64,000 nucleotides of DNA from Ferrimonas kyonanensis DSM 18153 (lineage in GTDB: Bacteria; Pseudomonadota; Gammaproteobacteria; Enterobacterales; Shewanellaceae). Under the pieces are notes generated by a model that was not told where the DNA came from, ran no database searches, and saw only the letters and a list, made by a program, of their open reading frames with translations. Shown here in pieces: positions 25,636-29,069 of this stretch; positions within the stretch are counted from its first letter, which is position 1, and the number at the start of each line of letters is the position of its first letter. The stretch lies in assembly GCF_000425405.1 (NCBI RefSeq), contig NZ_AUDJ01000011.1, positions 124,001 to 188,000 on the forward strand. The letters run 5' to 3'. The position numbers and the translations under genes were made by a program.

Positions 25636-25896
25636 AGGATGTCCTAATTTTTTTGTATTTTAATAATTTGAGTACAGAGTCGCACTGCCTGGGGCAGTTG
25701 CGGCGCAATTATGCGGATTTCGCCTCATTTCAGCAAGCAAAAGGCCAAAATGATGGCAAAAGTGTTATGAAAATGCGCAGGAATGTGATCGGGATTAACC
25801 GACAGATTAAACTCGGTTCAGACTCTGTTTCGACGGTCTCCTTAGCCTAGGCATACGCCAATGGGTACCAGGGTGCCGCTGAAAACAGATAAAAAA
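25636..25896. other. Upstream region of the purine permease
   Basis: No gene. It holds the permease promoter and an AT-rich leader just before its ATG (GGACATCCT precedes the start). I looked for a purine riboswitch and for a PurR palindrome and saw neither. Confidence 0.5.
25708..25736 (-). promoter_or_regulatory. Probable sigma-70 promoter of the permease gene
   Basis: On the minus strand TTGCTG (25736-25731), a 17-base spacer and CATAAT (25713-25708), about 70 bases upstream of the ATG. Each hexamer is close to consensus and the spacing is ideal. Confidence 0.45.
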
Positions 25897-25921
25897 ACGC
25901 CGGCAACAAGGTTGCCGGCGT
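25897..25921 (-). terminator. Terminator of the tandem peptide array
   Basis: On the minus strand CGCCGGCAAC and GTTGCCGGCG form a 10-bp stem followed by seven T residues, about 100 bases after the third peptide gene. It is the only terminator on this strand between the array and the permease, so it marks the end of the array transcript. Confidence 0.88.
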
Positions 25922-26021
25922 CAAGGATGACAAAGTTGGACCGTACAACCATCGGCGAATCCCGCCAATGGCACAGATGGGGTCTAAAACAAGTAACTGA
26001 TGAAATTACAAAGGGTAAAGC

Positions 26022-26111
26022 TTAGCGAACGTAATAAATTGCGGTCGCGTTCCAGCCGGCGGATGACCAGCTGCCATACAGGTTAACGGTGTAACCAAAT
26101 GGGGTATTCAT
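26022..26111 (-). CDS. Tandem microprotein, copy 3 (29 aa)
   Basis: A 29-codon gene, too short for ordinary gene calling, read from ATG 26111. The peptide starts MNTPFGYTVNLYGSW and ends WNATAIYYVR. It is identical to copy 1 at 18 of 29 positions, including GSWS, WNATAIY and the final Arg, and has the same length. CGGAG stands 9-10 bases before the ATG, as in copy 2. It is the most diverged copy, and its differences include many silent third-position changes. No homologue or function is recognised. It is the last gene before the terminator. Confidence 0.75.
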   Translation of the reverse strand: MNTPFGYTVNLYGSWSSAGWNATAIYYVR

Positions 26112-26196
26112 AATGTATGCTCCGATAGTTGCTAACACTGATTCGATAGTGGTGCGGTTCCCTGGCACAGCGACTCGGTTCCTTGGAGATACGGTT

Positions 26197-26214
26197 GCCT
26201 CAGCGGAGTGAGGC
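26197..26214 (-). ncRNA. Leader stem-loop of unit 3
   Basis: GCCTCA and TGAGGC form a 6-bp stem, loop CTCCGC on the minus strand, in the spacer before copy 3. It corresponds to stem-loops at 26422-26439 and 26644-26661. Confidence 0.6.
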
Positions 26215-26217
26215 GGG

Positions 26218-26236
26218 GTAACGGCGACGCCGTTAC
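26218..26236 (-). ncRNA. Post-gene stem-loop of unit 2
   Basis: GTAACGGC and GCCGTTAC form an 8-bp stem with a 3-base loop, beginning 8 bases after the stop of copy 2. It has no T-run, so it is more likely a stabiliser or processing site than a terminator. Confidence 0.6.
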
Positions 26237-26244
26237 GGTTTCTC

Positions 26245-26334
26245 TTAGCGAGCGAAGTAGATCGCGGTGGCGTTCCAGCTCATGTGAGACCAGCTGCCGT
26301 GAAGAGAAACGTTGTAAGCGAATGGGTAGTTCAT
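26245..26334 (-). CDS. Tandem microprotein, copy 2 (29 aa)
   Basis: A 29-codon gene from ATG 26334 with CGGAG upstream. The peptide starts MNYPFAYNVSLHGSW and ends WNATAIYFAR; it differs from copy 1 at only two residues (Pro-4 for Gln, His-17 for Asn). The two genes differ at seven bases, five of them silent third positions, which points to selection for this frame. Alternating residues (F5, Y7, V9, L11, then W20, A22, A24, Y26) around GSWS would suit an amphipathic beta-hairpin. The peptide is nearly neutral and has no signal peptide. Function unknown. Confidence 0.8.
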   Translation of the reverse strand: MNYPFAYNVSLHGSWSHMSWNATAIYFAR

Positions 26335-26421
26335 TGTGTATGCTCCGATAAATTGCTAACACTGATTAAAATAGTGGTGCGGTTCCTTGGCACAGCGACT
26401 CGGTTCCCTGGAGATACTGTT

Positions 26422-26439
26422 GCCTCACCGAAGTGAGGC
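26422..26439 (-). ncRNA. Leader stem-loop of unit 2 with UUCG tetraloop
   Basis: On the minus strand GCCTCAC and GTGAGGC form a 7-bp stem closed by C(UUCG)G, an exceptionally stable tetraloop. The seventh pair is C-G here and A-T in the unit 1 leader, a compensatory change that supports a real RNA stem. Confidence 0.7.
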
Positions 26440-26442
26440 TGA

Positions 26443-26459
26443 GTAACGGTGTCCGTTAC
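26443..26459 (-). ncRNA. Post-gene stem-loop of unit 1
   Basis: GTAACGG and CCGTTAC form a 7-bp stem with a 3-base loop, 8 bases after the stop of copy 1. The same stem, one pair longer, follows copy 2. Confidence 0.6.
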
Positions 26460-26467
26460 CGTCCTTC

Positions 26468-26557
26468 TTAGCGAGCGAAGTAAATCGCAGTCGCGTTCCA
26501 GCTCATGTTTGACCAGCTGCCGTGAAGGGAAACGTTGTAAGCGAATTGGTAGTTCAT
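26468..26557 (-). CDS. Tandem microprotein, copy 1 (29 aa)
   Basis: The promoter-proximal 29-codon gene, from ATG 26557 with CGGAGAA six bases upstream. The peptide starts MNYQFAYNVSLHGSW and ends WNATAIYFAR. Consensus over the three copies is MN-x-x-F-x-Y-x-V-x-L-x-GSWS-x3-WNATAIY-x-x-R. It is rich in aromatic residues (three Tyr, two Phe, two Trp), low in charge and without a long hydrophobic helix, so neither a typical membrane toxin nor a cationic bacteriocin. No modification enzymes or transporter lie beside the array. I do not recognise the family. Expression probably depends on the HexR-like promoter at 26712-26739. Confidence 0.8.
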   Translation of the reverse strand: MNYQFAYNVSLHGSWSNMSWNATAIYFAR

Positions 26558-26643
26558 AATTGTTCTCCGATAAAAATGCTAACACCTAGTGAAAGTGGTG
26601 CGGTTCCTTGGCACAGCTCGCTCAGTTCCTTGGAGAAACTTTT

Positions 26644-26661
26644 GCCTCAACCCTTTGAGGC
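26644..26661 (-). ncRNA. Leader stem-loop of unit 1
   Basis: On the minus strand GCCTCAA and TTGAGGC form a 7-bp stem with loop AGGG. It is the counterpart of the stem-loops at 26422-26439 and 26197-26214, with a changed but still paired seventh base pair. Confidence 0.65.
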
Positions 26662-26711
26662 AAGAAAACCAATCTGGCTTTACTAGGGGGAGTTGCCTCC
26701 CGACAGTTGCT

Positions 26712-26739
26712 ATAATACCTTTTTGTAATTTTATTACAA
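26712..26739 (-). promoter_or_regulatory. Array promoter overlapping a HexR-like palindrome
   Basis: On the minus strand TTGTAA (26739-26734), a 16-base spacer and TATTAT (26717-26712) form a good sigma-70 promoter. The -35 is the left end of a perfect 17-base palindrome, TTGTAATAAAATTACAA (26723-26739). As I recall it, the HexR consensus of gammaproteobacteria is TGTAATWWWATTACA, and this site fits it fully. HexR is an RpiR-family regulator of central carbon metabolism. A site covering -35 and spacer would suit repression. Confidence 0.6.
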
Positions 26740-26920
26740 GCTTTTCTGTGAATTAATTTAAAAAAACCGCGATTTCTGAAAGTTTATTACATGATAACCA
26801 ATGTGAATGAACCCTCCTGGCGCGACCGTCATCACAAAACCCCTCCAAAATGACAAGCTCACCCCAAAGCTGCCCAACAACAGTGGCATCGATCACACTT
26901 TCAGGCCCGCTTTCTGCCAT

Positions 26921-27820
26921 TTATTCATCCTCAGCCCGGATTGCCCGGGACGCCCTCAGGATGCAGGCCTGTATTCGACTGACCCGTTGCCGTTCCAACT
27001 CGGGCTGGTGTAACAGGCTAATGGTCAATCGCCGTTTACGCGACAGATAGTCAGGTAAAGCAGGACGCGACTCCGCGGCCAACACCGACTCAGGCACCAG
27101 CGCCAGCGCCACGTCGGCATTGACGGCTGCCAGCACGTTATCCATCACCGCCGTCGACAGCACCACCTTATGTCCAGCCCCACCGGACTTAAGATCCGCC
27201 AACGCCCAATCCCGAACCAGGCAGTCCTCGCTGAACAGGGCCACCGCCAATGGCTGTTCCGGGGTCATCAACAGTCGCGGCGCGCCGTGCCAAACCCAGG
27301 TTTCCTGCCATAACACGGTGGCACGCTCGTCGGCGTTGTCGGTAGCCACAATGGCCATATCCAATGCGCCCAGCGCCATCAAGCGCTGCAACTCCCGGCT
27401 GCGTTGGCATACGATACGAGCGTCTAACCCGGGAAACTCCATCGACAACGCCGGCATCATTTTTTGCAGCAGCGCCGGCAGGTACTCACTGGGCACACCG
27501 ATACGAAGTTGGCCGGTGATCAGAGGCTGACTGACCGCCGACACCGTCGCGGCATTCAGTGCCACCAGCCGTTCCGCATACTGTTTCAATGTCTGCCCGG
27601 CCTGGGTCAACTGAATACCCCGATTGGAGCGGCTCATCAGGCTGGTTCCCAGTTGCGCCTCCAGCTTTTTCAGTTGCATGCTGACCGCCGCCTGGGAACG
27701 ATACACCTCGGTCGCGGCGGGTTTGAGACCGCCGTGTTTCACCACCGCCAAAAACGTGTTCAGCAACTCGGTGTCGAGCAATGGGCGGGTATCGGTATTC
27801 TGCGGCAGCGTAGGGGGCAT
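26921..27820 (-). CDS. LysR-family transcriptional regulator
   Basis: LysR regulator of 299 residues. The HTH lies at about residues 20-45 (TFLAVVKHGGLKPAATEVYR, then SQAAVSMQLKKLE), followed by an effector domain with GQLRIGVPSEYLPALLQKM. It is divergent from a medium-chain oxidoreductase across about 110 bases and probably controls it. An N-terminal extension of roughly 15 residues (MPPTLPQNTDTRPLL) precedes the usual start, and the true start could be slightly downstream. The effector is unknown. Confidence 0.88.
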   Translation of the reverse strand: MPPTLPQNTDTRPLLDTELLNTFLAVVKHGGLKPAATEVYRSQAAVSMQLKKLEAQLGTSLMSRSNRGIQLTQAGQTLKQYAERLVALNAATVSAVSQPLITGQLRIGVPSEYLPALLQKMMPALSMEFPGLDARIVCQRSRELQRLMALGALDMAIVATDNADERATVLWQETWVWHGAPRLLMTPEQPLAVALFSEDCLVRDWALADLKSGGAGHKVVLSTAVMDNVLAAVNADVALALVPESVLAAESRPALPDYLSRKRRLTISLLHQPELERQRVSRIQACILRASRAIRAEDE

Positions 27821-27932
27821 CGGCGGCTCCAGTGATTCAGGTTTACTAAATCATACTCCAATTTTATTCGTTTGCCTGAATAACAGCGTGCCCCTACCCT
27901 GCCCTTATTGATTCTCAGATCGGAGCTGCGCC

Positions 27933-29069
27933 ATGACTCACCCTTCTCTCCCCACCACCATGAGTGGCGTCCAACTCAGCGGCCATGGAGGGCTGGAGAC
28001 ACTGAACTACCGAACCGATCTAAAGGTGCCCAGCCCAGGTCCGAATCAGGTGTTGATTCGAGTCGGGGCCGCCGCCATCAACAATACCGACATCAATACC
28101 CGCATCGGCTGGTACTCCAAGTCCGTGACTCAGGCAACCGATGCCGGCGGCCGTCACGGCTTTGAGGCCCTCGCCAGTCAGGATGCCTCCTGGGCCGGCC
28201 AGCCGCTGTCCTTTCCCCGCATTCAGGGGGCCGATTGCTGCGGTCGCATTGTCGCCGTCGGCGAAGGCGTGGCGCCACAACGGCTGGGCCAGCGAGTATT
28301 GGTGCGACCGCTGCAGTCGCCGCTGCACGCCGTTACCGACGATCATCCCGACTGCATTACCTGGGGCTCAGAGTGCGACGGTGCCTTCGCTCAGTTTGCC
28401 CTATGCCGGGCCTCGGAGGCGTATCGGGTCAACAGTCGCCTCAGCGACGCCGAACTGGCTGCCATTCCCTGCGCCTACTCCACCGCGGAAAACATGTTGC
28501 ATCGCGCCAACCTTGGCGCCGGCGAACGGGTGCTGATCACTGGCGCTTCCGGCGGCGTCGGCAGTGCCGCCATTGAGTTGGCCCGGCGCCGCAATGCCAG
28601 AGTCTGGGCGGTATCGCAGCCCAACAAACACGCGTCGCTGTTGGCCATGGGGGTAGAGCGGGTCTTCAGTCGAGACAGTGATCTGCTGGCCGAGGTGGGG
28701 CCGGAGTCGGTGCAGGTGGTGATCGATCTGGTGGCCGGCAATCACACCGCCACCTTAATGGAGCTGCTCTGTCGCGGCGGACGCTACGCCATCGCCGGCG
28801 CCATTGCCGGCCCGCTGATACAGCTGGACATGCGCACCCTGTACCTGAAAGATCTCAGTCTGCTGGGCTGCACGGTTCAGCCACGAGTGGTGTTTGAAAA
28901 CCTGCTGGATTACCTCGAACGGGATCAGTTGTCCCCCAAAATAGCGGGCCGCTTTCCGTTGTCGCAGATACGCCAGGCCCAGCAGGTCTTTTTACAGAAA
29001 CGCCACGTCGGCAAGTTGATTCTAGAGCCTCACGGGCCTCAGGCAGGGAGCGGGCCCCTGCCTGAGTAA
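27933..29069 (+). CDS. Medium-chain NADPH:quinone-type oxidoreductase
   Basis: MDR-superfamily oxidoreductase of 378 residues. It has a GroES-like N-terminal domain (GPNQVLIRVGAAAINNTD) and a Rossmann domain with the nucleotide motif ITGASGGVGSAAIELARRRN. The structural-zinc cysteine cluster of alcohol dehydrogenases is absent, which points to the quinone-oxidoreductase side of the family. Unusually, the catalytic domain carries IQGADCCGRIVAVGEGV. CGGAG precedes the ATG. It is divergent from the LysR gene that probably regulates it. The substrate is not deducible. Confidence 0.85.
   Translation: MTHPSLPTTMSGVQLSGHGGLETLNYRTDLKVPSPGPNQVLIRVGAAAINNTDINTRIGWYSKSVTQATDAGGRHGFEALASQDASWAGQPLSFPRIQGADCCGRIVAVGEGVAPQRLGQRVLVRPLQSPLHAVTDDHPDCITWGSECDGAFAQFALCRASEAYRVNSRLSDAELAAIPCAYSTAENMLHRANLGAGERVLITGASGGVGSAAIELARRRNARVWAVSQPNKHASLLAMGVERVFSRDSDLLAEVGPESVQVVIDLVAGNHTATLMELLCRGGRYAIAGAIAGPLIQLDMRTLYLKDLSLLGCTVQPRVVFENLLDYLERDQLSPKIAGRFPLSQIRQAQQVFLQKRHVGKLILEPHGPQAGSGPLPE

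Follow-up and report, generated by a model that had tools for sequence, protein, structure and literature searches.

SgrS/SgrT and SR1/SR1P are dual-function RNAs whose small protein is linked to sugar metabolism. VcdRP of Vibrio cholerae is described in PMC8672173 as an RNA of ~300 nt that carries a 29-residue protein, has its own promoter and terminator and is controlled by CRP; by the same account, VcdP acts on citrate synthase and the RNA acts on sugar transport. The ymdA leader of Escherichia coli is reported to carry two GGA sites before the start codon and a structure that hides the ribosome site, and its translation is activated by CsrA (PMC7492729). The SELEX consensus of CsrA is given as RUACARGGAUGU, with GGA in the loop of a hairpin with short stems, and a CsrA dimer is reported to bridge sites 10 to 63 nt apart; the six-nucleotide loop is presented as a SELEX preference and not as an absolute rule (PMC7652899). 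In Shewanella, the HexR regulon is reported to have grown to include central glycolysis and fermentation (PMC3223726, PMC5343134), and the HexR site of Pseudomonas is given as TTGT-N7-8-ACAA (PMC5489143).

Here we describe a microprotein locus in a 64,000-nt stretch of the Ferrimonas kyonanensis DSM 18153 genome (contig NZ_AUDJ01000011.1), called the window; coordinates are positions in it. Of the features of a dual-function sRNA, the locus has a short autonomous transcript that encodes a small protein under selection. Like VcdRP, the Ferrimonas array encodes a 29-residue protein on an RNA with its own promoter and terminator, under a putative regulator of carbon metabolism; the array differs in its HexR-like operator, its GGA-loop hairpins and its tandem copies, and the order-wide profile search described below gave no confident match outside Ferrimonas. 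SgrS/SgrT and SR1/SR1P, likened by description only, share the small protein on a structured RNA tied to sugar metabolism and have regulators other than the putative HexR and CsrA of the array. With ymdA, the Ferrimonas leaders have in common two GGA sites, where CsrA binding is putative, and a predicted structure hiding the ribosome site, which CsrA would open. In contrast to ymdA, a single arm serves both the first hairpin and the hiding helix, so that only one of the two can form at a time, and the arrangement is repeated before each tandem gene. Short hairpins with a GGA loop are numerous in CsrB and CsrC as well, but the Ferrimonas RNA is a messenger with selected reading frames, has one or two hairpins per frame and reaches the gathering score of no Rfam family. 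In the open literature on Ferrimonas small proteins, HexR and CsrA microprotein hairpins, with subscription papers outside its scope, no description of the locus was found.

Three tandem microprotein genes are under selection

Three tandem 29-codon genes on the minus strand of the window are real and selected. A previous sequence-only reading had placed them head to tail with starts at 26557, 26334 and 26111, each with an upstream CGGAG and a TAA stop, and our analysis bore this out, with spacings of 223 and 223 bp. The 223-bp repeat takes in the leader as well as the gene.

26468 to 26557, minus strand: microprotein gene 1, peptide MNYQFAYNVSLHGSWSNMSWNATAIYFAR; omega 0.07 against copy 2
26565 to 26569, minus strand: ribosome site CGGAG of copy 1, from the sequence
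26245 to 26334, minus strand: microprotein gene 2, peptide MNYPFAYNVSLHGSWSHMSWNATAIYFAR
26343 to 26347, minus strand: ribosome site CGGAG of copy 2, from the sequence
26022 to 26111, minus strand: microprotein gene 3, peptide MNTPFGYTVNLYGSWSSAGWNATAIYYVR
26120 to 26124, minus strand: ribosome site CGGAG of copy 3, from the sequence

As counted before, there are 7 base differences between copies 1 and 2, of which 5 are synonymous and 2 non-synonymous, and copies 1 and 3 are identical at 18/29 residues (62%). Pairwise omega ranged from 0 to 0.45 in 21 of the 22 pairs where it was defined, one pair being without any change. When eight pairs of near relatives were pooled, 34 synonymous changes on ~150 sites stood against 19 non-synonymous changes on ~555 sites (Fisher p 2e-12). 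The reading frame was intact in 26/26 genes. Because of the synonymous excess and the intact frames, we conclude, in agreement with the earlier claim, that the peptide is the selected product. No homologue was found in which the hairpins described below are kept and the frame is broken; two stray hairpin matches, in genomes G003 and G004, lie outside this count.

The family was followed by profile searches. The initial profile, built from the three window peptides, missed 3/14 Ferrimonas genomes and gave five weak matches (E 0.04 to 0.09) in other genera of the taxonomic family. The final profile, built from 22 distinct peptide sequences, detected 26 intact genes in 14/14 Ferrimonas genomes, including Ferrimonas futtsuensis, F. 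sediminum and F. aestuarii, and none in 138 other genomes of the same family at E <= 0.02. Homologous arrays are thus present in related genomes. In an order-wide search with an intermediate profile (394 genomes, four of them Ferrimonas), 18 non-Ferrimonas genomes matched at E 0.003 to 0.05, and none of these matches was confident. Seven of the 18 were inspected: the five from genus g6 were a single common sequence without an in-frame start codon, and two of the seven matches (G168 and G311) were on the minus strand, with G168 left as a candidate. The two-hairpin pattern, which would miss the four single-hairpin forms, occurred in 0/390 non-Ferrimonas genomes of the order-wide set (reversed control, 0), and a narrow pattern had no match in one scan of viral contigs. 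By these searches, the microprotein family is Ferrimonas specific.

Copy number varies. Triple arrays occur in five genomes (15 genes) and a lone gene in seven; G001 has two genes in two whole transcripts side by side, and G013 has two genes on two contigs. Single-copy versions are as frequent as arrays, so that triplication is not essential. The exact 223-bp period that had been claimed holds in the F. kyonanensis genome; elsewhere, the triple arrays are spaced 219 to 223 bp from start to start. In F. aestuarii (G001; L034, 4060 to 4898), the tandem duplication involves the whole transcript, from promoter to terminator, and not the internal unit. The second gene copy of G013 (L093, 3534 to 3632) lies on another contig, away from the usual neighbors.

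In a tree of the units, copies holding the same position in two close species grouped together, and the deep branches were poorly supported. Copies 1 and 2 are near-identical in G000 and G009. Likeness is only 61 to 64% among the copies of G008, of G005 and of G012, so that recent duplication alone does not account for the array in every species.

The peptides are 29 to 32 residues long, with M1, Y7, V9 and W20 invariant and F5 and L11 nearly so. They fall into two clades: clade A, with GSWS...WNATAIY, and clade B, with YNTW...WTTGA and allies. Searches of Pfam and NCBIfam gave no family that fits the peptides, in line with the earlier reading, which recognized none. An NCBIfam adhesin matched by 2/18 peptides at E 0.091 was judged a chance match, and so were the five sequences at E <= 1 (best 0.034) in a PDB profile search. 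The small beta-hairpin proposed earlier is weakly supported: AlphaFold2 predicted strands at residues 3 to 12 and 17 to 26, but with low confidence (pLDDT 65, pTM 0.21), and the model is too uncertain for a fold search. The microprotein is probably a small beta-hairpin. The best 15-residue Kyte-Doolittle window was <=0.91 in 26/26 peptides. With no hydrophobic stretch, the microprotein is predicted not to be a membrane peptide.

The array is one transcription unit

The array is one unit of ~800 nt with its own promoter and its own, strong terminator; the transcript was analyzed as 817 nt. The functional unit is wider than the sequence-only reading had it; its limits are the operator near 26739 and the end of the terminator at 25896. 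That reading had overlooked the operator, the paired GGA-loop hairpins before every copy and the frequency of single-copy versions.

26778 to 26792, minus strand: second, degenerate operator ATGTAATAAACTTTC, with 3 mismatches, 53 bp upstream of the main operator
26724 to 26739, minus strand: operator TTGTAATAAAATTACA, a HexR-like palindrome and the sole exact match in the genome
26712 to 26717, minus strand: predicted -10 element TATTAT from the promoter scan, its position kept in 16/16 aligned promoters
26688 to 26701, minus strand: leader hairpin GGGAGGCAACUCCC, paired in the fold, with the same sequence in 7/7 clade A transcripts
25896 to 25922, minus strand: Rho-independent terminator, a 12-pair stem and a T run, both kept in seven aligned clade A transcripts

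The promoter scan gave one promoter-like site against a mean of 1.5 in shuffled sequences, which is weak by itself. Transcription is predicted to start near 26705. Folding of the whole transcript gave a z-score of -5.1, indicating that the RNA is structured without telling which structure it adopts. At the 3' end (window positions 25923 to 26021 and the homologous regions of clade A), GTAATTTCATCAGTTA after the last gene and TTTGTCATCC ahead of the terminator are conserved. These segments could possibly serve in base-pairing.

A LysR gene is located upstream of the array in the window. Downstream are a transporter of the Xan_ur_permease family, an amino-acid kinase with a PUA domain and a gene of the aldehyde dehydrogenase family. 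The position is mostly conserved, the permease being downstream in 12/15 loci; it was not found within 4 kb in G010 and at both G013 loci. We considered the array as a leader of the Azg-type permease and rejected this reading, because the terminator lies between them and 3/15 loci have no permease within 4 kb. The LysR gene and a divergent zinc-type alcohol dehydrogenase gene (26921 to 29069) also occur upstream of the array in G012, at 54 to 65% identity; in G009, G008 and G005, the 4 kb ahead of the array contained no match to either. The upstream side of the array is a variable insertion point in Ferrimonas.

A HexR-like operator overlaps the promoter

The palindrome TTGTAATAAAATTACA overlaps the array promoter and adjoins its -10 element. 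A genome scan revealed five further sites with one mismatch each (the six sites make nine rows of the scan), and the reversed-pattern control gave one match. The one-mismatch sites adjoin genes for iPGM phosphoglycerate mutase, a Trp_Tyr_perm permease, an aldehyde dehydrogenase (which we take to be adhE-like), PEP synthase together with a kinase-PPPase (kinase-pyrophosphorylase), and phosphoketolase. Thus, 4/5 of the other sites are beside central-carbon genes and the fifth is beside an amino-acid permease gene. The 15-nt operator core is exact in 12/16 transcripts of the genus and has one mismatch in the other 4/16. A second operator within three mismatches was detected in 13/16 promoters, 52 to 53 bp upstream of the main operator in 10, 63 bp in 2 and 38 bp in 1; spacings of 52 to 53 and 63 bp correspond to five and six helical turns.

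The only HTH_6 (RpiR) protein encoded in the genome scored 523 bits on the NCBIfam HexR model NF008451 (cut-off 296), and this HexR orthologue sits between zwf, for glucose-6-phosphate dehydrogenase (G6PD), and the pyruvate kinase gene. Two observations count against the HexR reading. The spacer of the Ferrimonas palindrome is N9, against the shorter N7-8 published for Pseudomonas HexR, and the zwf-hexR and hexR-pyk gaps contain only boxes with three mismatches. From the operator sequence and its neighbors, we infer that HexR binds the array operator. As in the HexR regulon of Shewanellaceae, the palindrome adjoins central-carbon genes in the array genome; a microprotein array as a target is absent from the parts of PMC3223726 and PMC5343134 on which this comparison draws.

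GGA-loop hairpins precede every copy

Ahead of each of the three genes, the window contains a pair of hairpins with GGA in the loop.

26644 to 26661, minus strand: hairpin 0 of copy 1, GCCUCAAAGGGUUGAGGC, from sequence and fold
26621 to 26635, minus strand: GGA-loop hairpin 1 of copy 1, pattern match
26598 to 26614, minus strand: GGA-loop hairpin 2 of copy 1, pattern match
26399 to 26413, minus strand: GGA-loop hairpin 1 of copy 2, pattern match
26377 to 26393, minus strand: GGA-loop hairpin 2 of copy 2, pattern match
26174 to 26188, minus strand: GGA-loop hairpin 1 of copy 3, pattern match
26152 to 26168, minus strand: GGA-loop hairpin 2 of copy 3, pattern match

The window transcript has six such hairpins, against a mean of 0.13 and a maximum of 2 in 500 shuffles. 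The pattern CTCCANGGAAYYGAG gave 33 matches in 14/14 Ferrimonas genomes, 31 of them at the array locus, and the reversed control gave 0. The single stray matches off the locus are G003:C1:698598 and G004:C1:1154925. Counting only hairpins with at least three stem pairs, which dropped six further candidates with shorter stems, we found the 9-nt loop CANGGAAYY in 48/48 hairpins over 26 units. The variable position N is A in 32, G in 9, C in 6 and T in 1, and GGAA and both flanking C/G pairs are invariant in 48/48. Two hairpins are present in 22/26 units, spaced 20 to 27 nt in all 22, and 4/26 units have one strict hairpin. The stems differ between clades, being GUGC/GCAC or ACUC/GAGU. RNAalifold on 17 units gave no compensatory pair, either for the hairpins or for the switch described below, and covariation of the hairpins thus rests on the stem differences between clades and not on a formal test.

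These features point to CsrA. Its gene is present as a single copy in 14/14 Ferrimonas genomes, the loop CANGGA with its free N resembles the published CARGGA core, and the pair spacing of 20 to 27 nt falls inside the published bridging range of 10 to 63 nt. The six-nucleotide loop closed by AC/GU is not seen here: the loop has 9 nt, and no UG follows the GGA. The GGA-loop hairpins, their pair spacing, csrA in 14/14 genomes and a CsrB RNA in the genome together lead us to propose CsrA control of the leaders, as a prediction from sequence. The CsrB sRNA (L040, C6:114472-114768) is located on the same contig, ~9 kb before the window, and scored 83.2 bits (cut-off 71). A second, weak CsrB match in the genome (L041), with many GGA hairpins, may be a CsrC. 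For the window RNA, no Csr family of Rfam came up at the gathering score or at E up to 5; the looser search gave only weak matches near the terminator, the best being Esr41 (26.3 bits; gathering score, 102).

A possible translation switch

The ribosome site GGAG(A) has its complement in UCUCC, the 5' arm of hairpin 1. Across the 26 units, the arms pair better with their own ribosome site than with swapped ones, only 3/5000 permutations being as good; these units are related and thus not independent, and with 14 representatives 103/5000 permutations were as good. In free folds, the ribosome site was mostly paired, its unpaired probability being <=0.43 in 26/26 units. Holding hairpin 1 raised the predicted accessibility of the ribosome site by >0.1 in 14/26 units and not in the other 12; in the window, this gain was seen only in copy 3 and not in copies 1 and 2. 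The folds and the likeness to ymdA are suggestive of CsrA-activated translation, with repression as a serious rival.

As the best explanation, on which we would make an even call, the locus would produce the messenger of a new family of microproteins that serve central carbon metabolism, with HexR and CsrA in control. Peptide selection, genus-wide conservation, the operator, the hairpins and the terminator are the parts that the sequence analysis shows. One autonomous transcript of ~800 nt would serve as messenger for three copies of a ~30-residue microprotein. HexR, a regulator that responds to the Entner-Doudoroff intermediate KDPG, would gate transcription via the palindrome, which overlaps the -35 region; repression relieved by KDPG would be the likeliest sign. 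CsrA would gate translation copy by copy, a dimer bridging the two GGA-loop hairpins in each gene's own leader. Activation is the preferred direction: the UCUCC arm could pair with the GGAG ribosome site, and CsrA, by holding this arm in hairpin 1, would leave the site open, much as at the ymdA leader of E. coli. Once made, the microprotein would target an enzyme or a transporter of central carbon metabolism, in the manner of VcdP, SgrT and SR1P. A target in central carbon is proposed because both regulatory inputs point to carbon flux; by analogy with VcdP, the peptide may bind a central-carbon enzyme or transporter. The putative parts of the proposal are accordingly the binding of HexR and of CsrA, the sign of the CsrA effect, and the partner of the peptide. 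A further elaboration is doubtful, though conceivable: with a two-hairpin switch per copy and a single HexR operator, the cell would compute sugar flux (through HexR) AND free CsrA, and graded peptide doses would retune the Entner-Doudoroff pathway or lower glycolysis.

The opposite sign of CsrA control is somewhat unlikely and yet has to be taken seriously. Here, the dimer would grip a GGA hairpin and bridge to the GGAG ribosome site, as in the glgC mechanism, and the peptide would be made only when CsrB/CsrC titrate CsrA. GGAG is the ribosome site in every unit, the single-hairpin units retain both the hairpin and this site, and repression is the commonest CsrA mode according to PMC7652899. 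However, two hairpins at 20 to 27 nt already give a dimer both of its sites, with no call on the ribosome site, and the UCUCC arm changes in step with the ribosome site, for which repression has no need. The RNA might instead be primarily a third CsrB-like RNA under HexR, a CsrA sponge with the peptides secondary. Six GGA hairpins on one 817-nt transcript speak for such a role, and HexR control would tie sugar flux to free CsrA. We consider it quite improbable, since the peptides are under purifying selection, the hairpins are tied one pair per reading frame, 9/16 transcripts have one frame with one or two strict hairpins, and the window RNA has no CsrB match in Rfam while the genome has a real CsrB.

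The hairpins could also be a ligand-binding element, such as a tandem-hairpin riboswitch, or bind a protein other than CsrA. Two identical loops are reminiscent of guanidine-II, and GGAA and the flanking C/G pairs are invariant in all 48 hairpins, beyond the needs of CsrA. CsrA should tolerate change there, and with the 9-nt loop this makes another binder possible. Such a binder is nevertheless improbable: the hairpin number varies from 1 to 3 and the stems differ between clades, unlike a fixed ligand pocket, no Rfam family reached the gathering score, and the free N in CANGGA matches the CsrA prediction. Tandem repeats, short peptides and structured leaders are also features of type I toxin-antitoxin loci, such as the ldrABC or ibs/sib tandem repeats. 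That the array belongs among them is very hard to believe, given that 26/26 peptides are without a hydrophobic stretch, that the promoter scan detected no promoter-like site on the opposite strand, and that the locus is conserved in 14/14 genomes, largely at the same place.

Meaning of the locus

The locus is more richly regulated than first noted, and it would join the small-protein messengers of carbon metabolism. Bacterial microproteins are difficult to find and more so to assign; this new family brings two readable regulatory inputs toward central carbon metabolism. Its hosts are non-pathogenic marine bacteria, among which versions with one, two and three copies occur naturally and can be compared, and it provides a direct test case for CsrA as a per-gene activator acting via a hairpin that competes with a ribosome-site-hiding helix. 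If true, an element of this kind before every cistron, in which the hairpin and the anti-ribosome-site helix exclude each other, would put CsrA to a new use. Our analysis suggests a small-protein arm for HexR, as for CRP and SgrR.
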